Below are positions 48,385-64,000 of a stretch of 64,000 bases of DNA, one piece after another. Below the pieces are notes generated by a model. It searched no databases. It was given only the letters and a program-made list of their open reading frames with translations, and had not been told where the DNA came from. The stretch's first letter is position 1. Each line of letters starts with the position of its first letter. The DNA comes from Paracidobacterium acidisoli (GTDB taxonomy: Bacteria; Acidobacteriota; Terriglobia; Terriglobales; Acidobacteriaceae): the NCBI RefSeq assembly GCF_003428625.2, contig NZ_QVQT02000006.1:62001-126000 (forward strand), read 5' to 3'. The position numbers were made by a program, and so were the translations under genes.

Positions 48385-49524
48385 TCAGTCGCGTGCAGTA
48401 TGTGGCAGATCGTCGATGATCTGTTCTGCTCTTTCCAGAGATGCGTACTGCATCGCGTATGACGGGGTATCCATGATGAGTCTCAGAAAGGCTTCGAAGG
48501 TATCCCGCTTCAGCCGGCGGGCAGGCAGCATACCGCCTTCATTGAGAGAGCTGAGTGAGCGGAGCGGGGAGAGACGCTCTGCATATCCGGCAGACGATGG
48601 GTTGTATTCCGGAAACACGATATGCGTGAGCCGTTGCGGCTGAGCGGCGAGGCGAGGCGGATGCAGCAGGCGTATTTTCATTCCGTCGGAGCGCAGATGG
48701 ACAGGTGCGGCGGCCAGTTGCGGCCACTCATGAGCGAGCACATTCCAGCTTCCTTCTTTCAGGCTGACAGGAAAGTGAAGTGGAGATACGGAAGCTGTAT
48801 CCAGATGCAGCAGCGTGGGCTCGTCGGCCAGCAGATCGAAGCCCCGGGCCACCAGGTGCGCCGTCAGAGTACTTTTGCCGGACTCGCGCGGCGCACAGAG
48901 CATCACTCCCCTGCCCTGACCGGCCACCATCGCTGCGTGAAAGGCGATATCGTATTGCGCTTCGGCATAGAGCAGGGCCCGCGCGGCATGCAGAAGGCCT
49001 AATCCAATCTGCTTACCCTGAAGGCCGGACAGAAATTCGCCGCCATTTATATGGATGGCCCAGCGATTTCCTTTCTGCTGTGCCTGCAAATGGCATTGAG
49101 CAGGCCGAGTGGTTACCGAACAGTTACGAAAATAATCAAGGCAAAGATTCTGGAACGGCCCGGCGGGATATTCGAGAAAGACGGGAATGCCGTGGATCTC
49201 GAGATTGGCGGACAAAGGATCATGCAGTGCCGGCCACTCCGGAGATGTGTCTTCGCCAGGAAAGATTCCCTGAGAGAGCGCGTGGATGGTTTCCAGTCCA
49301 TCTTCCGATGCCGCGGGCGGCGAGGAGAAGCGGCTTCCATCGTGAGAGGCTCTCAGCTCGTGAACGCCAACCCCTGCATTGAAGGCACGATACGCGGCCA
49401 CCCCGGCGGCATCGAGGCCGACAAAGCGGTTCTGCGTTTCTGAAAAGACGACCCCTCCGCCATCCACAAGATAGAGGCATTGGCCCGGGTATGTGCTGTC
49501 GAGGCGATGTAGTTTTCTGTCCAT
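48385..49524 (-). CDS. PqqD-like/HprK-like serine kinase-type protein
   Basis: The 379-residue cytoplasmic protein has an N-terminal region (~18-58: YLVDGGGVVFSETQNRFVGLDAAGVAAYRAF) that looks like the small PqqD winged-helix fold used for peptide recognition. From ~195 it resembles the HPr-kinase P-loop domain: FHAAMV, then the Walker A loop APRESGKST (211-219) and LLADEP. HprK-related kinases phosphorylate proteins or, in some lasso-peptide clusters, a C-terminal Ser. It lies on the opposite strand at the left edge of the tail-collar locus, 338 bp from the first collar gene. A nucleotidyltransferase that often accompanies such kinases is at the other edge. Its substrate is not known; phosphorylation is inferred from the fold. 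Confidence 0.72.
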   Translation of the reverse strand: MDRKLHRLDSTYPGQCLYLVDGGGVVFSETQNRFVGLDAAGVAAYRAFNAGVGVHELRASHDGSRFSSPPAASEDGLETIHALSQGIFPGEDTSPEWPALHDPLSANLEIHGIPVFLEYPAGPFQNLCLDYFRNCSVTTRPAQCHLQAQQKGNRWAIHINGGEFLSGLQGKQIGLGLLHAARALLYAEAQYDIAFHAAMVAGQGRGVMLCAPRESGKSTLTAHLVARGFDLLADEPTLLHLDTASVSPLHFPVSLKEGSWNVLAHEWPQLAAAPVHLRSDGMKIRLLHPPRLAAQPQRLTHIVFPEYNPSSAGYAERLSPLRSLSSLNEGGMLPARRLKRDTFEAFLRLIMDTPSYAMQYASLERAEQIIDDLPHTARD

Positions 49525-49862: not shown

Positions 49863-50375
49863 ATGGGTACCCCTTACATTGGCGAAATACGCATGGCAGG
49901 GTTTAATTTTGCACCCGTCGGCTGGGCTTTCTGCAACGGCCAGACACTACCTATCTCGGAATACAGCGCGCTCTTTAACCTGATCGGCACAACGTACGGC
50001 GGAGACGGAATCAATACCTTCAGTCTTCCCAATCTGCAGGGCCGGATTCCTTTTCATCAGGGAACGTCCGCCGGCAACACAATGGTGCTGGGGCAGATCT
50101 CGGGTTCGGAAAGCGTCACGCTCATCACCAGCCAGATTCCTGCGCACACGCATGCCCTGAATGCGAATTCGGCAGCGGGCTCGCAGCCGTCTCCCGGAAA
50201 CGGGATGTGGGCGGCCTCCAATCTGGATGAGTATTCCACGGAAGCAGCAGCGCATGCGATGGCTCCAAGCGCGATTCTTCCGACGGGCGGCAGCCTGCCG
50301 CACGATAATATGCCGCCTTTTCTTGTGGTGAATTTCATCATCTCCCTGTTCGGCGTTTATCCGAGCCAGAGCTGA
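49863..50375 (+). CDS. Tail-collar (microcystin-dependent protein-like) protein 1
   Basis: A 170-residue protein with a phage-tail collar domain at its N-terminus: IGEIRMAGFNFAPVGWAFCNGQTLPISEYSALFNLIGTTYGGDGINTFSLPNLQGRIPFHQG. This is followed by IPAHTHALNA and the conserved end NFIISLFGVYPSQS. It is the first of three tandem paralogs (gaps 22 and 33 bp). Such stand-alone collar proteins are common in bacteria without a phage tail; the domain trimerises in phages. No signal peptide is visible, and the role outside phages is unknown. No other tail, capsid or lysis genes are present, so this is not a prophage remnant. Confidence 0.85.
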   Translation: MGTPYIGEIRMAGFNFAPVGWAFCNGQTLPISEYSALFNLIGTTYGGDGINTFSLPNLQGRIPFHQGTSAGNTMVLGQISGSESVTLITSQIPAHTHALNANSAAGSQPSPGNGMWAASNLDEYSTEAAAHAMAPSAILPTGGSLPHDNMPPFLVVNFIISLFGVYPSQS

Positions 50376-50397
50376 ATCCCAAACGCAGAGGATCTCT

Positions 50398-50895
50398 ATG
50401 TCGACACAGTTTCTCTCTGAAATCAGAGCCGTGAGTTTTAACTTTCCTCCGAAGGGCTGGGCATTCTGCAACGGACAGACTCTTCCCATCGACCAGAATC
50501 AGGCGCTGTTTTCGCTGCTGGGGACGACCTACGGCGGAGACGGCATAAGGACCTTTCAGCTTCCGAACCTGCAGGCCATGATGCCGGTTCATGCGGGGAA
50601 TGGATTCACGCTGGGACAAGCCGGAGGCGAGGTCAACCACACGCTCATTCAGCCGGAGATGCCCGCTCACAACCATTCTGCGCAAGGCGTATCGAGTAAT
50701 GCCACTTCGCCGTCCGCGGAAGCGAATACCTGGGCCTCCTCCTCGCATAACCCTTACAGCACGGCGCGAAACACGACGCTGAGTCCGGCGGCTCTCAGCC
50801 AGACCGGCGGCAGCCAGCCCCATAACAACATGCCTCCCTGCCTGACGCTGACCTTCATCATCGCGCTGCAGGGAATTTACCCGTCACGCAGCTAA
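50398..50895 (+). CDS. Tail-collar (microcystin-dependent protein-like) protein 2
   Basis: The 165-residue second paralog has the core EIRAVSFNFPPKGWAFCNGQTLPIDQNQALFSLLGTTYGGDGIRTFQLPNLQAMMPVHAG, then MPAHNHSAQGVSSNAT and the end TFIIALQGIYPSRS. It differs from the first mainly in the variable middle (~85-130), which in phage collars forms exposed loops. It ends in Ser like its neighbours. It is surely co-transcribed with the flanking collar genes. Confidence 0.85.
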   Translation: MSTQFLSEIRAVSFNFPPKGWAFCNGQTLPIDQNQALFSLLGTTYGGDGIRTFQLPNLQAMMPVHAGNGFTLGQAGGEVNHTLIQPEMPAHNHSAQGVSSNATSPSAEANTWASSSHNPYSTARNTTLSPAALSQTGGSQPHNNMPPCLTLTFIIALQGIYPSRS

Positions 50896-50928
50896 CCATC
50901 GCGTAACTGAGAGGAAAGGACCTGACGC

Positions 50929-51459
50929 ATGGCTGACCCATTTGTAGGGGAAATTCGAATCGTGCCGTTCAATTTCGCGCCCATCGGCTGGGCACTGTGC
51001 AATGGACAGCTTATAGCCATCGCTCAGAACACCGCGCTGTTTTCGCTGCTGGGGACACAGTTTGGCGGCGACGGCAGAAGCACATTCGGACTGCCGAACC
51101 TGCAGGGCAACGCGCCCATGAATCAGGGCAATGGCGCGGGTCTGACTCCGCGAACCATGGGTGAGACCGGCGGAGAGCCATCGGTCACGCTGACGATATC
51201 GGAGATCCCCGCCCATCCGCACACGGCGATGTGCGCTTCGGCCAGCACCACCGGCACTCCGGGCCCCACGATCGTTTTCGGCGGCGGCGGACGAGGAAAG
51301 GAACCGGCCTACGCGCCCGCGTCGCAGCCAAATGCGGCCCTGATGAACCCGCTGGCGGTTGCGATGACGGGAAGCAGCCAGCCCCACAACAACCTGCCGC
51401 CTTATCTGACTCTGAATTTCATCATCGCTCTGCAGGGAATCTTTCCGCCACGTTCGTAA
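50929..51459 (+). CDS. Tail-collar (microcystin-dependent protein-like) protein 3
   Basis: The 176-residue third paralog reads GEIRIVPFNFAPIGWALCNGQLIAIAQNTALFSLLGTQFGGDGRSTFGLPNLQGNAPMNQGNG, then IPAHPHTAMCASAST, a Gly-rich insert FGGGGRGKEPAYAP, and the end NFIIALQGIFPPRS. It is preceded by GAGAGGAAAGG. The GNAT acetyltransferase gene starts nine bases after its stop, indicating tight coupling. The divergent middle suggests that the three proteins may form a hetero-oligomer, which is inference. Confidence 0.85.
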   Translation: MADPFVGEIRIVPFNFAPIGWALCNGQLIAIAQNTALFSLLGTQFGGDGRSTFGLPNLQGNAPMNQGNGAGLTPRTMGETGGEPSVTLTISEIPAHPHTAMCASASTTGTPGPTIVFGGGGRGKEPAYAPASQPNAALMNPLAVAMTGSSQPHNNLPPYLTLNFIIALQGIFPPRS

Positions 51460-51467
51460 AGACATCG

Positions 51468-51947
51468 ATGAAGGAACAGATCACATTACGCGACGCGACT
51501 GCGGAGGATCTGCCGTTTCTCGCCCTTGTTTACTGGGATACGCGCCGGCAGGAAGTGGATGCGTGGGGATGGCCGCCGGAGCAGCAGAAGCTGTTTCTCG
51601 AGATGCAGTTCCATGCGCGGCGTCAGTGGTATCGCGCAGCTTATCCGAACGCGGCCGATTACATCATCTGTCATGAAAATGCGGCCGTGGGGTACATGGT
51701 GGTCAGCCGGGATGATGCAGAGGAGCAACTGATCGATATCGCGCTGCTCGGCGAATACAGAAATCACGGCATCGGTACAAGCCTGCTGCGCAGGCTTCTT
51801 GAGGAGTGCGAGGCACGCGGCCGCGCTCTGCGCCTGCAGGCACTGAAGAGCAATCCGGCCATCCGGCTCTATCAGCGTCTGGGATTCGTGCAGTCAGGCG
51901 CCGACGATATGTACGCACAGCTCCAGTGGCGGCCACCCGCGCACTGA
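51468..51947 (+). CDS. GNAT-family N-acetyltransferase
   Basis: This 159-residue cytoplasmic acetyltransferase has the acetyl-CoA site LIDIALLGEYRNHGIGTSLLRRLLEECEARG (~89-119), with the R/Q-x2-G-x-G/A pyrophosphate loop as YRNHGIG, and the motif-B end NPAIRLYQRLGF. I start at ATG 51468; the same frame is open far upstream inside the third collar gene but without coding character. Because it lies between the collar genes and the DUF6916-like gene it may acetylate one of these products, but small-molecule targets are equally possible. Confidence 0.85.
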   Translation: MKEQITLRDATAEDLPFLALVYWDTRRQEVDAWGWPPEQQKLFLEMQFHARRQWYRAAYPNAADYIICHENAAVGYMVVSRDDAEEQLIDIALLGEYRNHGIGTSLLRRLLEECEARGRALRLQALKSNPAIRLYQRLGFVQSGADDMYAQLQWRPPAH

Positions 51948-51957
51948 AAGGACCCGC

Positions 51958-52260
51958 ATGTCGGAAGATCTCACTCCCGGTGATTTTGCTCCGCATCTCC
52001 ACCTGCACTTTCGCGTTGCGCAGGCGGCGGACTACGAACTGGAGCTGGCAGAGATTGCCGATCACTCCAATGCACATCTCGAACAGTTTTCTCTGATCTT
52101 TACAGGAGCGGCCTCTCCCTGGCTTAAACAGGGCCTGTATACGCTCACACATCCGCACACGCCGGAGTACGAGCTCTTTCTGGTGCCGACCGGACCGGAA
52201 GCCGGAGCGATGCGGTACGAGGCAGTCTTTTCACGCTTTCTCCATGCACCGATGTCCTGA
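51958..52260 (+). CDS. DUF6916-like small protein
   Basis: A 100-residue protein (FAPHLHLHFRVAQAADYELELAEI ... FSLIFTGAASPWLKQGLYTLTHPHTPEYELFLVPTGPEAGAMRYEAVFSR). The mixed beta pattern matches the small family often found beside collar-type genes. No signal peptide or membrane segment. It begins ten bases after the GNAT stop with a GAAAGGA site and is part of the same operon. Function unknown; a chaperone or adaptor of the collar proteins is a guess. Confidence 0.65.
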   Translation: MSEDLTPGDFAPHLHLHFRVAQAADYELELAEIADHSNAHLEQFSLIFTGAASPWLKQGLYTLTHPHTPEYELFLVPTGPEAGAMRYEAVFSRFLHAPMS

Positions 52261-52363: not shown

Positions 52364-55300
52364 ATGTTTTCGTCCCCCACGAATCGCCGTTCGTTCTTCG
52401 CTCACGTCCCTGTGGTTCTGCTCTCCGTTCTGGCAGGCATTGCGCTGTGCATGGATACAGCGTATGGACAGCAGAACGTCCTCGCTTCGCCTCAACAGTT
52501 ACAGACCCGTCCCCTGCATGTTCAGCTCGCTGGCGAACAGCCTCGTCCTCTTGCGATGGTTTCGGGCGACTTTGACGAAGACGGCGTCCAGGACCTTGCC
52601 GTCGGCTACGGCCTGACGAAGGGCGGCTCCATCCTGCTGCTGAAGGGGAACCTCGACGCGCGCGCTCCGCAGACGCAGGCGAGCTGGGAGGCCGCGGGAC
52701 GACACCAGTATTCAGACCCCTATCTGCAGAGCTCGAAACCGGTTTCCGTTGCCGCAGAGCCTGACCTGATGATCGCTGCGGACGTAAACGGCGATGGGCA
52801 TCTGGACGTGGTGTACGCAACGAAGGGCAGCACCACGCTGAACGTGATGTTCGGCGACGGCAAAGGAAACTTCCGCGCTCCGGTGAGCGCATCCGTTGCG
52901 GGAGGCATCACGGCACTGGCCTCTTATCGTCCCGGTTCGCCGTTGTCGGGCGAAGCGATTATCGCCGGCACTCAGTCGAATAACGGAGCCCGGCTGTCGG
53001 TTCTGACGTACAGCGGAACCGCGCTGACCGCGCGTGCCGCGTATCCTCTGCCTGGCGCGGCGACTGCGATGACGGCCGCCAATCTCGACGCCGATCTCAT
53101 TCCCGATATCGCGGTCGTTGCGGGTGGAAAGGTGATGATCCTGCATGGCAAAACCGCACTTTCGGGACGCGGCTCGCTGACTACGGTGCCGGTCAGCGGC
53201 GCTGAATCGGTAACAACGGGAGAGTTTCTTTTCGATCGCCATGCGCAGCTGCAGCTGGCGGTGCTGACCACCAGCGGCGATGTGGTGATTCTGGCGCACA
53301 GCGGCTTCGATCCCCGGCCCTACACGCCGCAGCAGATTGCGCAAACACGCCGCCGCGGCAATTCCGAGTCGCTGGCCCAGCAGGCCGGCAACAACGGAAA
53401 TGAACCCTGGGTGGAGGTTGAAACGAACACCGGGGCAGCCGCGTCCAGCACGGATGGCAAGCCCCCTATCCTGCTGCGCTCGCGGATATCGGGCAGCGGT
53501 GGCGACGATCTTGTCGTCGTCAACTCCTCGCAGCAGCAGCGCACCCTTATCAGCCACGCCGCGGTTTCTTCGCAGAGCTCCGTCGCTGCAGAAACCAGCC
53601 GTGTGACTTCCGACAACATCGCATCCGACAATGTGGTCGCCGCCGTGTCCTCGCAGGTGACGCCGGCCACGAGCCATGGTCTGGTATTACTCAGCGCCGA
53701 TAACATATCGCCGGATTTCACCGTGCCCAGCACGGGAAACACCTTCTATGTGAATACACCGGCAGACAACACCGGAACGACGACTGATCCCGATGACGGC
53801 ACACGCTGCACATCGGGTTCGAGCGAGGTTTGCACGCTGCGGGATGCAGTCACGTTTGCGAACAACGATGCGTCCGACAACATCAGCGCGGGCAAGTCGG
53901 ACACGATTATGGTCCCGGCGGGAACCTATACCCTTACCTGGCAGAAGGGAACGACCGATGCAAATACCAATGCGGTGACGCACCTGGAGATCCTGGGACC
54001 GGTGACCATCATCGGCACGACGACCGGCGGCGGCACGATTATCAGCGGCGGCAACAACGACACGGTCTTCACCATCAACCCGGGCATGTTTGGATCGGAA
54101 AACCCCAGCGGCAACAGCTACGTCTTCGATACCACCCTTGAAAATCTGACTATCGAGAACGGCAAAAATACAAACAACATCAATAACAATGGCCTGGCGA
54201 ACTTCGTTGGCGGAGGGCTGAACTGGGATGCCGACGGCACCGGCAATCTGACGCTGACCAACACCGTGGTTGAGAACAACACTGTGCTGTGGGGACCTGG
54301 CGGCGGCATCTGGGCACAAAACTCCGCCGGCGGGGGCACCGGAACGCTCACGATCAGTGGAGGCAGCATCGCAAATAACTCCACACCGGAGCTGGGCGGC
54401 GGCATACAGACTGCCTTCCCACCTGCCGCAGTCTCCATCACCAATACGACCATCACCGGCAACAAGGCACAGATAAGCATCAATCCAGGCGATGGAGATG
54501 CCGACGGGTCAGGCGGCGGATTGTATCTTGAGGGCCGTCAGCCACCACCCGCCACGCCTCAATCCACGCTGTCCGGCGTCACGATCAGCTCCAACACGGC
54601 GGCCAATGACAATGGCGGCGGCATCGCGACCTTTACAGGGGTTCTTATCAGCGGATCGCTCTTCAGCAGCAATTCGACCGGAGGCTCCGGCGGCGGCATC
54701 TGGAGCAACCCTGCCGGCGATGGATCGCAAACCACCATCACCAGCTCGAATTTCCTGACCAACTCCGCCTCCGGGACCGGCGGCGCGATCGCGCTGGGTA
54801 TCGAAACTCAGGCGGAGGGAAACATCCTGAATGTCAGCCTGAGCCGTATCGTCGGCAATACCGCGACCGGCGGTGGAAGCGGACTGGCGAATGGAGTATC
54901 CGGCGAAGGAGCGGGCGAGGCCATCGCTACCGAAAACTGGTGGGGATGCAACTCCGGCCCGGCGACGGCGAGCGACGGATGCGATCAGGCTGTTCTCGAG
55001 AACGGGGCAGGTAGTCTGACGACCGCACCTTACGCGAAGCTGACCTTCACTTCGGATATCATGACCATCCCGCCGGGCGGCAGCATGAATCTTACCGTCG
55101 GCCTGAATACCGATTCCAATAACAATACGATTGCCGGGGCCTTCCCCGCAGTGGCGACCAACTATCCCTATACCTTCAACGTAACCGGAGTGACGGCCGA
55201 CCCGGCGCTCACCACCGGAACATTCAATACCTCCGGCGTGGGCACCGCGGTTCTTACGCCGTCCACTACCGGCAGTGGAATGGTGACGGTCACCTTCGAC

Positions 55301-57262
55301 AATCAGACCGACAACATCAACTTCACTGCGCAGGGCGCGACGGCCACATCGCTGTCGATCACGGCGATTCCCAGCACGACATTCCTGTATGGCCAGCCTT
55401 CCGGCTTTACCGTTCAGCTGACACCGAGCAATGCCACGGGGATTACGGCGGCCAACTTCCAGGTCACGGTGGATGGCGCCAGCAACATCGGCGGAAGCTC
55501 CTTTGGGCTGATTCTGATCGGGAATAACGACTATCAGATCTTTGGACCATTTAACCTGCTGTCTCCCGGCGGGCATAGTCTTGCGGTCAAATTCCTGGGC
55601 ACCACCAACTTCGCCGCCAGCAGCACCAGCACTCCGCTGAATGTTTTGGCCGGAACCGTAACCATTGGGTCCACGGTCACGCCCACGAATCCCCTCCTGG
55701 GACAGGGAGGAAGCGTTGCGGTCAGCGTCGCCGGAGTGGGCACAGGAGCGGTACCGACGGGCTCGCTGAGCTACGCATTCGACGGTGGAAGCAGTAACGT
55801 CGTATCTCTGGCCGGCGGCGCTGCAACCATTCCGATTCCAACGACGCTGAGCGCGGGAAGCCACTCCCTGGCCATTACCTACAGCGGCGATGGAAACTAC
55901 GCCACTGCGTCAACCTCGGTGCCATTCACGGTCTTCGGTCCGTCGCAGACGAGAATCGCATCGCTGACGCCAACGACGGCCACGATCGACGTGTTCGGCT
56001 TCGGCTTCACAGCTCCAAGCGGTCAGCTGTCCTTCACCGACGTGACATCAGGCAGTCCCGTTGCCGCGCCGGTGACGCTCAATACAGCCTCGGCGGCGCC
56101 GTCTCTGCTGCCCCAGGTGACCACCAGCACCGGCGCGAACAGTCTTCCTGTCTGGACGGACCTGGCAGACGTGAATGGAGATGGAAATCCGGACCTGATT
56201 ACATCGGTATTCGGTACGGATTCCATCAACGTGCAGCTGGGCAACGGCAACGGAACCTTTGGAGCGGCGACCTCCATTCTGATCTCGGCAGGATTTGGTC
56301 CGGCTGAGGTGCATGCCGTAAGCCTGCGCGGAAACGGCACGATGGACCTGGTCGTCGGCAGCTTCAATGTCAATCAGATTGCCGTGCTGCTGGGCAACGG
56401 CAACGGAACCTTTCAGCCCCCGACCCTCTACACCGTCGGCACGGCGGCCAGTACTCCCACTTCGCTGACTACGGGAGACTTTAACCACGACGGCAACCTG
56501 GACGTAGCGGCTGCGAACACGGGGAATAACAACATCAGTATCCTTCTCGGCAACGGCAGCGGCGCTCTGACGCCGCTGGGCGCGCCCATCGCGGTCGGAC
56601 GCGATCCCGAAGCGATTCGCTCCGGCGACTTCAACAGCGACGGCTATTCCGACCTGGCCGTAGCAAACTACGGTGACGGCACGGTTACCATCCTCCTGAA
56701 CAACAAAAACGGAACGTTTGCAGCCAGCCACATTACCACTGGAGCTGGTCCGCAGGCCCTGGCGATCAACGGTACCGGAACAAATCTGTTACTCGCAGTG
56801 GCAAACTACCTCGGCAACACAGTAAGCGTGCTGCCGAGCAATAACGACGGCACATTCGGCACGGCGAAGGTGGTTTCTGTCGGCCGCGGACCGGACGAAG
56901 TAAGATTCGCCGATTTCAACGGAGACAGTATTCCCGACCTGGCCGTTGCGAACTATACAGACGGCACGGTCAGCCTGGTGCTGGGGAGCTCCGGCGGAAG
57001 CTATACGGCGCTGTCTCCATTCCAGGTGGGGAACAATCCCTATTCCGCCGCTGTCGGCGATATCGATCGTGACGGAACTCCTGATCTGGTAGTAGCCAAC
57101 TGCTTCAGCAACAATACCGGCGTGCTGCTGGGCGGAACGCAGATCTCCGTGCCCTACAGCGGTCTCGCGCTCACCCCCGGAGATACGCTCCACGCCACCT
57201 ATACACCCGACGGCAGCAGCAAATACGGGTCAAGCACCTCTCCCAATGTCACAGCTCCATAG
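52364..57262 (+). CDS. Giant secreted VCBS/FG-GAP, CSLREA-type beta-helix and Ig-like repeat protein
   Basis: The 1,632-residue exported protein starts at ATG 52364 behind GGAGGTAAAA. Signal peptide: NRRSFFAHVPVVLLSVLAGIALCMDTAYGQ (residues 7-36). VCBS/FG-GAP-like units (~40-330: DFDEDGVQDLAVGYG, DVNGDGHLDVVYA) are followed by a CSLREA-type segment near 480 (CTSGSSEVCTLRDAVTFAN), a Gly/Asn-rich right-handed beta-helix (~500-880), Ig-like domains (~960-1195) and a second run of VCBS units (~1240-1590: DVNGDGNPDLITS, DFNHDGNLDVAAAN, DFNSDGYSDLAVANYG). The DxDxDG loops bind calcium in homologues. Probably a surface or extracellular adhesin. It is the largest product of the collar locus and the likely partner of the collar proteins. 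Confidence 0.88.
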   Translation: MFSSPTNRRSFFAHVPVVLLSVLAGIALCMDTAYGQQNVLASPQQLQTRPLHVQLAGEQPRPLAMVSGDFDEDGVQDLAVGYGLTKGGSILLLKGNLDARAPQTQASWEAAGRHQYSDPYLQSSKPVSVAAEPDLMIAADVNGDGHLDVVYATKGSTTLNVMFGDGKGNFRAPVSASVAGGITALASYRPGSPLSGEAIIAGTQSNNGARLSVLTYSGTALTARAAYPLPGAATAMTAANLDADLIPDIAVVAGGKVMILHGKTALSGRGSLTTVPVSGAESVTTGEFLFDRHAQLQLAVLTTSGDVVILAHSGFDPRPYTPQQIAQTRRRGNSESLAQQAGNNGNEPWVEVETNTGAAASSTDGKPPILLRSRISGSGGDDLVVVNSSQQQRTLISHAAVSSQSSVAAETSRVTSDNIASDNVVAAVSSQVTPATSHGLVLLSADNISPDFTVPSTGNTFYVNTPADNTGTTTDPDDGTRCTSGSSEVCTLRDAVTFANNDASDNISAGKSDTIMVPAGTYTLTWQKGTTDANTNAVTHLEILGPVTIIGTTTGGGTIISGGNNDTVFTINPGMFGSENPSGNSYVFDTTLENLTIENGKNTNNINNNGLANFVGGGLNWDADGTGNLTLTNTVVENNTVLWGPGGGIWAQNSAGGGTGTLTISGGSIANNSTPELGGGIQTAFPPAAVSITNTTITGNKAQISINPGDGDADGSGGGLYLEGRQPPPATPQSTLSGVTISSNTAANDNGGGIATFTGVLISGSLFSSNSTGGSGGGIWSNPAGDGSQTTITSSNFLTNSASGTGGAIALGIETQAEGNILNVSLSRIVGNTATGGGSGLANGVSGEGAGEAIATENWWGCNSGPATASDGCDQAVLENGAGSLTTAPYAKLTFTSDIMTIPPGGSMNLTVGLNTDSNNNTIAGAFPAVATNYPYTFNVTGVTADPALTTGTFNTSGVGTAVLTPSTTGSGMVTVTFDNQTDNINFTAQGATATSLSITAIPSTTFLYGQPSGFTVQLTPSNATGITAANFQVTVDGASNIGGSSFGLILIGNNDYQIFGPFNLLSPGGHSLAVKFLGTTNFAASSTSTPLNVLAGTVTIGSTVTPTNPLLGQGGSVAVSVAGVGTGAVPTGSLSYAFDGGSSNVVSLAGGAATIPIPTTLSAGSHSLAITYSGDGNYATASTSVPFTVFGPSQTRIASLTPTTATIDVFGFGFTAPSGQLSFTDVTSGSPVAAPVTLNTASAAPSLLPQVTTSTGANSLPVWTDLADVNGDGNPDLITSVFGTDSINVQLGNGNGTFGAATSILISAGFGPAEVHAVSLRGNGTMDLVVGSFNVNQIAVLLGNGNGTFQPPTLYTVGTAASTPTSLTTGDFNHDGNLDVAAANTGNNNISILLGNGSGALTPLGAPIAVGRDPEAIRSGDFNSDGYSDLAVANYGDGTVTILLNNKNGTFAASHITTGAGPQALAINGTGTNLLLAVANYLGNTVSVLPSNNDGTFGTAKVVSVGRGPDEVRFADFNGDSIPDLAVANYTDGTVSLVLGSSGGSYTALSPFQVGNNPYSAAVGDIDRDGTPDLVVANCFSNNTGVLLGGTQISVPYSGLALTPGDTLHATYTPDGSSKYGSSTSPNVTAP

Positions 57263-57317: not shown

Positions 57318-57518
57318 ATGAAGGAAAACGAAAACAAGGAAGATATACGCTCCCAGGAGAACCAGGATACAACCATCTCCCCTCAGGCGGACTCTGCGAA
57401 TGAGCCGGAGGCATCGAACCGGCGCGAGCTGATTTTGCGCTACGGCAAATATGCCCTGGTCGCGGCTCCTCTGCTGATGTTCGTATCGAAGGCACAGGCC
57501 ATTCACAGCCGTCCCTGA
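57318..57518 (+). CDS. 66-residue peptide with RR motif and a C-terminal hydrophobic segment
   Basis: A short gene directly after the giant protein gene; AAAGGAGAG lies about 12 bases before ATG 57318. The product has a charged, Gln/Asn/Glu-rich leader (1-33), a twin-Arg (NRREL, 35-36), a hydrophobic stretch YALVAAPLLMFV (45-56) and then SKAQA-IHSRP. If AQA is a signal-peptidase site, only five residues (IHSRP) remain. This resembles a RiPP precursor or a tail-anchored peptide more than an ordinary enzyme. The product of such a small gene cannot be proven from one sequence, but its position and ribosome-binding site argue that it is real. Confidence 0.68.
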   Translation: MKENENKEDIRSQENQDTTISPQADSANEPEASNRRELILRYGKYALVAAPLLMFVSKAQAIHSRP

Positions 57519-57599: not shown

Positions 57600-58706
57600 T
57601 CAAGCTGCGGGCGGAAACAAAGTTCTCCACACCCGGGAGATACCATACTTCTGCAGCACCCGGAGCGGACGCAAAACAGGCACAAGATTTCTGCTGATCC
57701 GATAGCGCTCCATCCATTGATCGTCCATCGGAGTAGGCGCGAGATAGCTCAGCCGGCGGCGCCATCTTCTGCGCGCGCTCCGCTCTGTCTGCAGATAGAA
57801 CGCCCGAATCTCGTTGATCACCTTTGGGTCTTCTGCAAACATTTGCGCAACCACGCGCCGTGCCCTTTCGGCCATCCGGGGAGATTCCGCAATCGCCGCA
57901 TCCATCCCGGGCGGCAACTGCCGCGGCAACATTTCGCGCACCACTTCGCAGCCGATCAGCAACCATGCCTCCTGACCTTCCCGGCGCGCCCGCTGTATCA
58001 GCGCCTTGTAATCGCCAGTCCGTATTCTGTTCAGCGCCCGCGCAACGTCCAGAATCCAGATGAGCCGTGAAAAGCCATGCTTCAGCCCGTGGAGGCACAG
58101 GAACAAAACAAGATCATCGTCGGACATCACACGCATGGGGCTGCCCCGGAACGTGCCTTCGGCCGAGCGTCTCCAGACCCCGTCCAGGTCGAAAGGAAAA
58201 TACCGGGACGGTGCGATGCCGAAGTGCAGCTCCACCGGAACGCCGTTGCGGACAAACCTGCGGTGATAGTCGTCGATCTCAGAAGAAGCAGCAAAGCCCA
58301 GGCGCAGCAACAGAGCTTCGGCGCGAGGATAATCGCCGCCGCGTACCAGCAGGTCCAGATCGTTGCACTGCCGCATCGCCGCATCGCCATACAGCGACTC
58401 CGCCAGCACCGGCCCTTTTAAGGGAAGTGCGTCGATGCCCTGCGCGGCAAACTCCTTCAGCAGGCTTTCCAGCTCCGCCGAAAATATCTCCGCAGCTACG
58501 CCGCATTCGCGCGCCGCAGACGCGAAGAAATCGGGAATGGCAGCGCCTGCTTCGGAAAGCGACCGGCAGACAGGAAGAAGCACGCCGTTTTCAGCGGCCA
58601 AAGCCTGCAACGTATGCCAGTCGATATTGGACGGAATGGTGAAGGGCTGTCCGCGCAGGCAGGTAATAAGAAGAGCAGCTTCAGCAAGCGTCTCAGGTTC
58701 GCTCAT
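57600..58706 (-). CDS. Nucleotidyltransferase family 5-like protein
   Basis: This 368-residue cytoplasmic protein of the NTP_transf_5-like family has the key region LPLKGPVLAESLYGDAAMRQCNDLDLLVRGGDYPRAEALLLRLGF (~94-138), with the two metal-binding Asp residues of NDLDLLV, then VPVELHFGI (~157-164). I choose ATG 58706 (GGAG seven bases upstream); an in-frame ATG at 58772 lacks such a site. Family members accompany HprK-related kinases, and in one lasso-peptide system a homologue adds sugars to a phosphorylated peptide. Here the kinase-like gene lies at the opposite end of the locus. It converges on the small-peptide gene. Activity is inferred. Confidence 0.78.
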   Translation of the reverse strand: MSEPETLAEAALLITCLRGQPFTIPSNIDWHTLQALAAENGVLLPVCRSLSEAGAAIPDFFASAARECGVAAEIFSAELESLLKEFAAQGIDALPLKGPVLAESLYGDAAMRQCNDLDLLVRGGDYPRAEALLLRLGFAASSEIDDYHRRFVRNGVPVELHFGIAPSRYFPFDLDGVWRRSAEGTFRGSPMRVMSDDDLVLFLCLHGLKHGFSRLIWILDVARALNRIRTGDYKALIQRARREGQEAWLLIGCEVVREMLPRQLPPGMDAAIAESPRMAERARRVVAQMFAEDPKVINEIRAFYLQTERSARRRWRRRLSYLAPTPMDDQWMERYRISRNLVPVLRPLRVLQKYGISRVWRTLFPPAA

Positions 58707-62657: not shown

Positions 62658-64000
62658 ATGCGCGCGATTTCTCGTCTTGCTTTGTTTCCTGCGTTGTTGA
62701 CGCTCGCAATGCTGGCTATTGGATTCTTCTGCCCGACGGCCGAAGGGCAAACCGGAGAGTGGGCCTGGATGGGCGGCAGCAGCAGCTATGGCCAGTCCGG
62801 CGTGTACGGCACGCTGGGCACGCCCGCGGCCGGAAACGTCCCCGGAAGCCGTTACGGGGCGATGACCTGGACCGACAGCAGTGGTCATCTGTGGCTCTTT
62901 GGGGGGAACGGTTTTGATACTTATGGTCAGACCGGTGATCTCAACGATCTTTGGGAGTTCGATCCTGCCACATCCAAATGGACATGGATAAGCGGCGGCA
63001 GCACATGGGGTCATCTCGACGTGTACGGCACCCTGGGCACGCCCGCCGCAGCGAACACTCCTGGAGCTCGCGAAGCGGCAGTCACCTGGACCGACAGCGG
63101 TGGCCATCTCTGGCTCTTTGGAGGAGAGGGTTACGATTCCCTGAACAACAGCGGGGCTCTCAACGATCTTTGGGAGTTCGATCCTGCCACGAGCGAATGG
63201 ACCTGGATGGGCGGCAGCAACACCGTCGGCACGCAGGGCGGCCAGGCCGGTGTTTACGGCACCCTGGGCACGACGGCCGCAGGAAACATTCCCGGCGGCC
63301 GCTTCGGAGCAGTGAGCTGGACCGACAACAACGGCCATCTCTGGCTCTTTGGGGGGCAGGGTTTTGATTCCACCGATACAAACGGTTATCTCAACGATCT
63401 TTGGGAGTTCGATCCTGCCACGAATCAATGGACCTGGGAGGGCGGCAGCAGCACCCTGAGCACTTATGGGTTGGGTCACGCAGGCATCTACGGCACCCTC
63501 GGCACGCCTGCCACTGGAAATATCCCCGGAGGCCGTGAGTATGCGATGAGCTGGAGCGACAGCAATGGCCATCTCTGGCTCTTTGGGGGAGAAGGGGAAG
63601 GCGCCGTGGAGATTGACAATATTCCCTATTTTGGTTATCTCAACGATCTTTGGGAGTTCGATCCTGCCACAAATCAATGGACCTGGGAGGGCGGCAGCAG
63701 CACCGTACCGACGAGCTCCGGCGACAACCTTCTGGGCCAGTCAGGCGTCTACGGCACTCCGGGCACGGCGGCTGCCGGAAACACCCCCGGCGGCCGCAGT
63801 TCGGGAATGAGCTGGACCGACAGCAACGGCCATCTCTGGCTCTTTGCCGGGTACGGAGCCAATTCCGAAGGAGGCGTCGGCTATCTCAATGATCTGTGGG
63901 AGCTCAACACTGCCACGAATCAATGGGCGTGGATGGGCGGCAGCAGTACCCTGCTGGGCGCACCGGGCACTTACGGCACACTGGGCACGCCTGCCGCGGG
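62658..64000 (+). CDS. Secreted Kelch-repeat protein, 3' end outside the window
   Basis: From ATG 62658, with GGAG seven bases upstream, a frame stays open to the window edge (>447 residues). The signal peptide is residues 1-30 (LALFPALLTLAMLAIGFFCPTAEGQ). Near-identical ~80-residue units follow, each with WTxMGGSSxxG-QxGVYGTLGTPAAGNxPG, WTDSNGHLWLFGG and LNDLWEFDPATNQW, the Kelch/galactose-oxidase beta-propeller blade pattern. At least five blades lie in the window, and the DNA repeat CTTTGGGAGTTCGATCCTGC recurs from 62950 to 63665. Probably a cell-surface or extracellular binding protein. Confidence 0.88.
   Translation, partial: MRAISRLALFPALLTLAMLAIGFFCPTAEGQTGEWAWMGGSSSYGQSGVYGTLGTPAAGNVPGSRYGAMTWTDSSGHLWLFGGNGFDTYGQTGDLNDLWEFDPATSKWTWISGGSTWGHLDVYGTLGTPAAANTPGAREAAVTWTDSGGHLWLFGGEGYDSLNNSGALNDLWEFDPATSEWTWMGGSNTVGTQGGQAGVYGTLGTTAAGNIPGGRFGAVSWTDNNGHLWLFGGQGFDSTDTNGYLNDLWEFDPATNQWTWEGGSSTLSTYGLGHAGIYGTLGTPATGNIPGGREYAMSWSDSNGHLWLFGGEGEGAVEIDNIPYFGYLNDLWEFDPATNQWTWEGGSSTVPTSSGDNLLGQSGVYGTPGTAAAGNTPGGRSSGMSWTDSNGHLWLFAGYGANSEGGVGYLNDLWELNTATNQWAWMGGSSTLLGAPGTYGTLGTPAA

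Follow-up and report, generated by a model that had tools for sequence, protein, structure and literature searches.

The 64,000 nucleotides of Paracidobacterium acidisoli DNA that we analyzed (hereafter, the window) carry a group of genes that opens with an HprK-like kinase, continues with three collar-domain proteins, a GNAT acetyltransferase, a DUF6916 protein, an FG-GAP repeat protein and a short peptide, and closes with a PF14907 nucleotidyltransferase (NTase) (Table 1). Relative to the peptide gene, the kinase and NTase genes are both encoded on the other strand; they account for the kinase-like and transferase-like neighbors that a first-pass annotation of this DNA had placed around it, one being HprK-related and the other a PF14907 nucleotidyltransferase. 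The three collar genes (window 49863-51459) match phage tail families, and their products are possibly domesticated tail proteins. A tandem array of about 3-4 copies of ~220-230 bp units, with 72-75% matches, occupies positions 62790-63950 at the end of the window.

Table 1. Features of the peptide locus, in window coordinates.
Feature	Position	Strand	Remark
HprK-like kinase, 379 aa, N-terminal RRE-like domain	48385..49524	-	
RRE-like (PqqD/lasso B1 fold) domain, kinase residues 1-95	49240..49524	-	predicted structure
Collar-domain (Mdp-like) protein 1	49863..50375	+	travels with the module
Collar-domain (Mdp-like) protein 2	50398..50895	+	PHROG tail families
Collar-domain (Mdp-like) protein 3	50929..51459	+	
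GNAT acetyltransferase	51489..51947	+	
DUF6916 protein	51958..52260	+	
FG-GAP / Ig-like repeat protein, 1632 aa from chosen start	52364..57262	+	directly upstream of peptide
Peptide gene, 66 aa	57318..57518	+	ATG 57318, TGA 57518; proposed precursor with modified Ser64
C-terminal HSRP codons of peptide	57504..57515	+	Ser, Pro invariant in 6/6 homologues
PF14907 NTP_transf_5 nucleotidyltransferase, 367 aa from chosen start	57600..58703	-	convergent with peptide gene

The peptide gene starts 55 nt after the stop of the FG-GAP gene, with a GGAG 14 nt upstream of its ATG, and translates as MKENENKEDIRSQENQDTTISPQADSANEPEASNRRELILRYGKYALVAAPLLMFVSKAQAIHSRP. As the first-pass annotation had described, the product is composed of an acidic N-terminal part (residues 1-34 have a net charge of -6), an arginine pair, a hydrophobic stretch (ALVAAPLLMFVS), AQA and a C-terminal IHSRP. 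No family in Pfam, NCBIfam or PHROGs was assigned to it. The combination of RR, hydrophobic segment, AxA and a tail of 3-8 residues was found in 11 of 22,805 ORFs from related DNA (1.21 Mb), or about 1 per 2,000 ORFs by chance, and two other ORFs among the 1,022 in the window, both on the minus strand, have it as well. Because the pattern alone is within reach of chance, the case for a real ORF rests on conservation.

Matches to the peptide at an E-value of 6e-9 or better were present in six of 300 family genomes, the window's own included. The first-pass annotation had proposed that the absence of a conserved ORF in relatives, or homologues with long unrelated C-termini, would count against its reading; when we checked, all six alignments extended to the last residue and the five homologues stopped at the same residue, each with a Ser-x-Pro end. 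The tails read IHSRP in the window, VHSKP in genome G182, IHSKP in G168, G174 and G141, and VKSAP in G158. Thus, the conservation sought for the IHSRP tail extends in all six peptides to the Ser-x-Pro terminus (HSRP, four times HSKP, and KSAP) and to the point where the protein ends, but not to the exact residues. In the six-sequence alignment the N-terminal half is poorly conserved, the length after the hydrophobic stretch is constant, and the invariant positions are R35, R36, I39, R41, K44, A46, P51, L52, F55, S57, S64 and P66. Over the last 32 codons, pN ranged from 0.04 to 0.37 versus a pS of 0.61 to 0.92 in all 15 pairs. By this measure the C-terminal part of the peptide is under purifying selection and, judged by its conservation, the ORF is a real gene. 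Matches in 52 more genomes at E-values of 0.005-1 were dropped because they fell inside other frames. A phylum-wide profile search of 396 genomes returned only the window's own genome and four weak matches (E 0.001-0.009), which we took as chance given their longer or broken frames. Plasmid records gave no peptide match, none of 14 pattern matches in viral contigs (G168 homologue as query) was confirmed, and a pattern search of genome contigs produced 109 stretches, of which four were confirmed (G168, G174, G141 and G158), with no new members.

Some features of the peptide would fit export. The Tat consensus comprises twin arginines followed by hydrophobic residues; the motif RR[ED][LM]I is present in all six peptides, and TatC is encoded in 6 of the 7 genomes with the module, including the window's, and is absent from the G174 assembly. 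An AxA signal-peptidase site is present in five of the six peptides and places Ser64 third after it, the same serine being the third of the last five residues in all six. The exception is G158, where HKRQ replaces KAxA (HKRQ-VKSAP), so that AxA is lost while the Ser-x-Pro end and its spacing are retained. The five-residue product after signal cleavage that the first-pass annotation had envisioned is therefore in keeping with five peptides but not with the sixth; release of a pentapeptide at AxA is plausible. Export and cleavage could also free an unmodified IHS[KR]P that acts as a pheromone, loosely comparable to the enterococcal pheromones cut from lipoprotein signal peptides, as might be expected from a pentapeptide conserved after AxA in five of six homologues. 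The part released here, however, would come from the other side of the cleavage site. In addition, G158 has VKSAP without the AxA, no gene for a sensor or importer stood out next to the peptide gene, and the linkage to the kinase and NTase would be left unexplained. We consider such a signaling role very improbable.

In four genomes (the window's, G141, G158 and G174), the peptide gene comes immediately after the FG-GAP gene, and it converges with the NTase gene in the window, G141 and G158. Acidicapsa dinghuensis (G168) and G182 have the peptide gene followed by the NTase and kinase genes, all on the same strand and at a distance from the FG-GAP gene. The module genes of G141 are split over two contigs, each of which breaks off within the FG-GAP gene. 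In G174, the collar genes, the FG-GAP gene and the peptide (HSKP) are together with neither kinase nor NTase nearby. The G174 assembly contained no orthologous kinase (its best kinase match, at 4.6e-7 over residues 196-248, is a generic P-loop) and no match to the window's NTase, and the only PF14907 match in it (7e-28) was not matched by the window's NTase. The gap may have a technical cause, G174 being a 90% complete MAG that is also without TatC. These arrangements bear on the alternative of a C-terminally tagged membrane peptide, which the first-pass annotation allowed for and which may describe the product: a small protein would span the membrane once, with its acidic tail in the cytoplasm and a short C-terminus in the periplasm, and would serve the FG-GAP/collar system in assembly or anchoring, while the neighboring kinase and NTase have other targets. 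The position of the peptide gene after the FG-GAP gene in four genomes, its persistence in G174 beside FG-GAP and collar genes without the orthologous enzymes, a hydrophobic stretch that could insert in the membrane, and an AxA that is not universal are all consistent with this role. Yet the peptide of G168 and G182 is found ahead of the NTase and kinase genes rather than with FG-GAP, the best hydrophobic run is only about 12 residues, a membrane protein gives no reason for the invariant Ser-x-Pro terminus, and an RRE-like kinase domain (see below) predicts a peptide substrate nearby. We regard this alternative as unlikely.

Across the family, an orthologous kinase was found in 6 of 398 genomes and the peptide in five of those six, a co-occurrence with a Fisher p of 2e-9 when 300 genomes are taken as shared. 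The sixth, G159 (59% complete), has the kinase but no peptide on its 35 kb contig, and no NTase match. At the start of this contig (C44; L105 1-3300), where the peptide would follow, the FG-GAP gene is in two inverted fragments, probably an assembly fault. The kinase could also act on another protein of the module (collar, DUF6916 or FG-GAP), the peptide then being an adaptor or an unrelated product, and the presence of collar genes at 6 of the 7 module loci agrees with this. The 25 kb contig of G158, however, carries NTase, peptide, FG-GAP and kinase genes and no collar or DUF6916 match, G174 retains FG-GAP and collar genes without the kinase, and the related HprK-type kinases that an RRE assists have small precursors as their substrates. 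A substrate other than the peptide is, in our estimate, quite unlikely.

Residues 188-373 of the kinase match TIGR04352 (HprK-related kinase A) at an E-value of 2.5e-28 and with 99 bits, under the cut-off of 200; PF07475 and PDB HPr kinases match it weakly. Residues H196, K217, S218 and D234 are invariant in the six module kinases and, counted from the P-loop Lys, have exactly the spacing of H148, K169, S170 and D186 in BsfK; according to a review, lasso kinases share a His-Lys-Asp-Asp set (PMC9266682). The BsfK study describes H148, G163, K169, S170, D186 and D187 as required and G166 as dispensable, and reports that G163A rendered the enzyme poorly soluble (PMC10368454). The positions of G163 and D187 are taken by Ala211 and Glu235 in all six module kinases, and that of G166 by Glu214 in the window kinase. 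With Ala211 and Glu235 at positions important in BsfK, kinase activity cannot be assumed; a Glu for the second Asp was also found in several other Acidobacteriota kinases.

The model of the whole kinase was poor (pLDDT 46), with no reliable structure for the kinase domain, and we therefore modeled the N-terminal domain alone. Residues 1-95, modeled from three sequences (pLDDT 75.9, pTM 0.63), have a predicted topology of three strands (15-20, 23-28 and 33-38) and then three helices (39-49, 54-62 and 74-84). Foldseek gave no match to this domain at E <= 0.001; its rows 1-6 were lasso B1 RREs solved with leader peptides (probability 0.96-1.00, TMq 0.47-0.52, E 0.012-0.062). Rows 1-8 from VIA-align were lasso B1 and radical-SAM RiPP enzymes at weak Z-scores of 4.5-5.3, compared to 4.2 for unrelated folds and 3.2 for PqqD, and we presume that SuiB and the sactipeptide enzyme among these matches carry RREs. 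Pfam found no PqqD match in the domain. A Methylobacterium plasmid kinase, retrieved with the window kinase as query, has an N-terminal Pfam PqqD domain and is near a PF14907 gene. The predicted fold suggests that an RRE-like domain is likely present at the kinase N-terminus.

The NTase matches PF14907 at an E-value of 3.2e-55, and its KGP and DLDLLVR motifs are invariant in the five module orthologues. PF14907 proteins as such are common, being present in 177 of the 300 family genomes. With the window's NTase as reference, the module NTases match at 2e-113 or better; for 60 other PF14907 loci (part of the matches found), the match is 2e-47 or worse in 59 and absent in one. A weak HprK match was present in one of these 60 loci (L068) and a collar or FG-GAP match to the module in none, so PF14907 in general is no marker of the module.

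The idea of a modified short peptide, as raised in the first-pass annotation, gains support from the predicted RRE-like kinase domain and from published kinases that phosphorylate small precursors. According to these reports, PadeK, ThcoK and SyanK phosphorylate a C-terminal Ser and PsmN adds hexoses (PMC8498205, PMC9266682), BsfK phosphorylates core Ser3 of BsfA in a reaction accelerated by an RRE (PMC10368454), and LppK phosphorylates core Ser3 of LppA, the leader then being removed by the signal-peptidase-type LppS, inefficiently without phosphorylation (PMC13381572). Our proposed order of events follows these systems: precursor binding by an RRE, then phosphorylation of a Ser by the kinase, then action of the NTase on that phosphate. 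Along these lines we infer that the peptide is phosphorylated, and at which residue, that the NTase modifies it further, and that it is exported and cleaved. In the cytoplasm, the RRE-like domain of the kinase would bind the conserved segment RRELIxRYxKYAxxAAPLLxF, the kinase domain would phosphorylate Ser64 in the Ser-x-Pro tail, and the PF14907 enzyme would then attach a hexose or nucleotide to the Ser64 phosphate. The same RR/hydrophobic segment would direct export via Tat or Sec and, in peptides with AxA, a housekeeping signal peptidase may free I-H-S(P)-R-P, in which the modified Ser would occupy core position 3. Ser64 was proposed as the site from its conservation, before the parallel with core Ser3 of BsfA and LppA emerged, and this parallel could be a coincidence.

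On balance, we lean toward a phospho-tailored short peptide whose precursor is the product of this ORF and which the RRE-kinase and the NTase would process, and find it somewhat more probable than otherwise that the kinase acts on the peptide. A modified pentapeptide that is secreted is, in our estimate, less likely than not. The NTase step is by analogy the least certain part of the mechanism, because deletion of lppN is described as having left the products unchanged in the host (PMC13381572). Against the mechanism as a whole stand the G174 peptide, kept without an orthologous kinase or NTase, the loss of AxA in G158, Ala211 and Glu235 at two positions that matter in BsfK, and the FG-GAP and collar genes, which travel with the module yet have no role in the model.

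Among the closest known systems are linear polyphosphorylated peptides (LPP), which are reported as restricted to Bacillota (Popov et al., 2026, PMC13381572). LPP clusters share with the module an HprK-like kinase, an NTP transferase and no need of a lasso cyclase, and would share an RRE, predicted here, as well as a phosphate on core Ser3 and signal-peptidase-type leader removal, both proposed here; in LPPs this serine carries multiple phosphates. LPPs have a discrete RRE, whereas the predicted RRE-like domain is fused to the kinase in the module, and a 45-residue core rather than a possible five-residue one. The LPP leader motif YxxPxVLxHQxIxFETxxS is absent, by eye, from all six peptides, and the host here is an acidobacterium. 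LPPs are also described with an archaeal-type SpI (SipW-like) and an MsbA-type exporter; TIGR02228 exceeded its cut-off in none of the seven module genomes (G158 has one sub-threshold match), and the window proteins that were scanned included no such exporter. Also similar would be the phosphorylated lasso peptides (paeninodin, pseudomycoidin and Bsf), in that an HprK-like kinase acts on the C-terminal Ser or core position 3 of the precursor with an NTase partner and RRE assistance (PMC8498205, PMC9266682, PMC10368454). The Bradymonas bsf phospho-lasso cluster is likewise bordered by an FG-GAP repeat protein, which its authors presume to be uninvolved (PMC10368454). The peptides differ from lasso precursors in their Ser-x-Pro end and in the absence, by eye, of the YxxPxL leader motif, the invariant P51 having no Tyr or Trp three residues upstream. 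The lasso B2 protease (PF13471) had no match in the window's 97% complete genome and is present elsewhere in three of the seven module genomes, and the peptide core would be too short to thread as a lasso. On present evidence, the module belongs to neither class, though it would work like both; what separates it from the LPPs is the predicted fused RRE-like domain, the lack of an SpI over the cut-off and the different leader. We suggest, with considerable reservation, a distinct class of phospho-peptides in which the export signal doubles as the RRE-bound leader, a one-piece RRE-kinase fusion and an NTase decorate Ser3 of a pentapeptide I/V-x-Ser-x-Pro, and the product, exiting through Tat or Sec, needs neither a protease nor an exporter of its own.

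A search of the literature, with most subscription journals outside its scope, found no description of this type of locus. Outside lasso and LPP clusters, we know of no established substrate for HprK-like kinase/PF14907 pairs. The locus provides a candidate substrate that is small and conserved, has a single obvious site and occurs in the named strain Acidicapsa dinghuensis 4GSKX as well. With only two genes, it would also offer a simple way to ask whether a kinase can have an RRE built in; if the mechanism is true, phospho-tailored peptides in Acidobacteriota extend beyond lasso chemistry.

We gathered fourteen regions with remote HprK-like kinases, and three plasmid loci. A short precursor was sought in the plasmid loci and, on condition that it end near a Ser and have a ribosome site, in five of the fourteen regions and in L109; the filters let some ORFs through, but no convincing one. 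L109 (6538-9561), on a Methylobacterium tardum plasmid, has a PqqD-HprK fusion that adjoins a divergent PF14907 gene, with no recognized short peptide. The window's own genome has, on contig C11 (L153 6672-13241), a second cluster of an HprK-like kinase and PF14907 that also encodes a GT87 glycosyltransferase and a radical SAM protein, in which a limited look found no convincing precursor. HprK-like kinase and PF14907 neighbors also occur in other Acidobacteriota. What we take to be the HPr-rel-A cassette, with a TIGR04352 kinase, a separate PqqD protein and PF14907, has the same three functions side by side and differs from the module in its separate domains, its other neighboring genes and its kinase, the window kinase scoring below the TIGR04352 cut-off. 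In one such locus from another Acidobacteriota family (L142 8070-10372), PqqD (97 aa), HprK (308 aa) and PF14907 (360 aa) are separate genes in a row.
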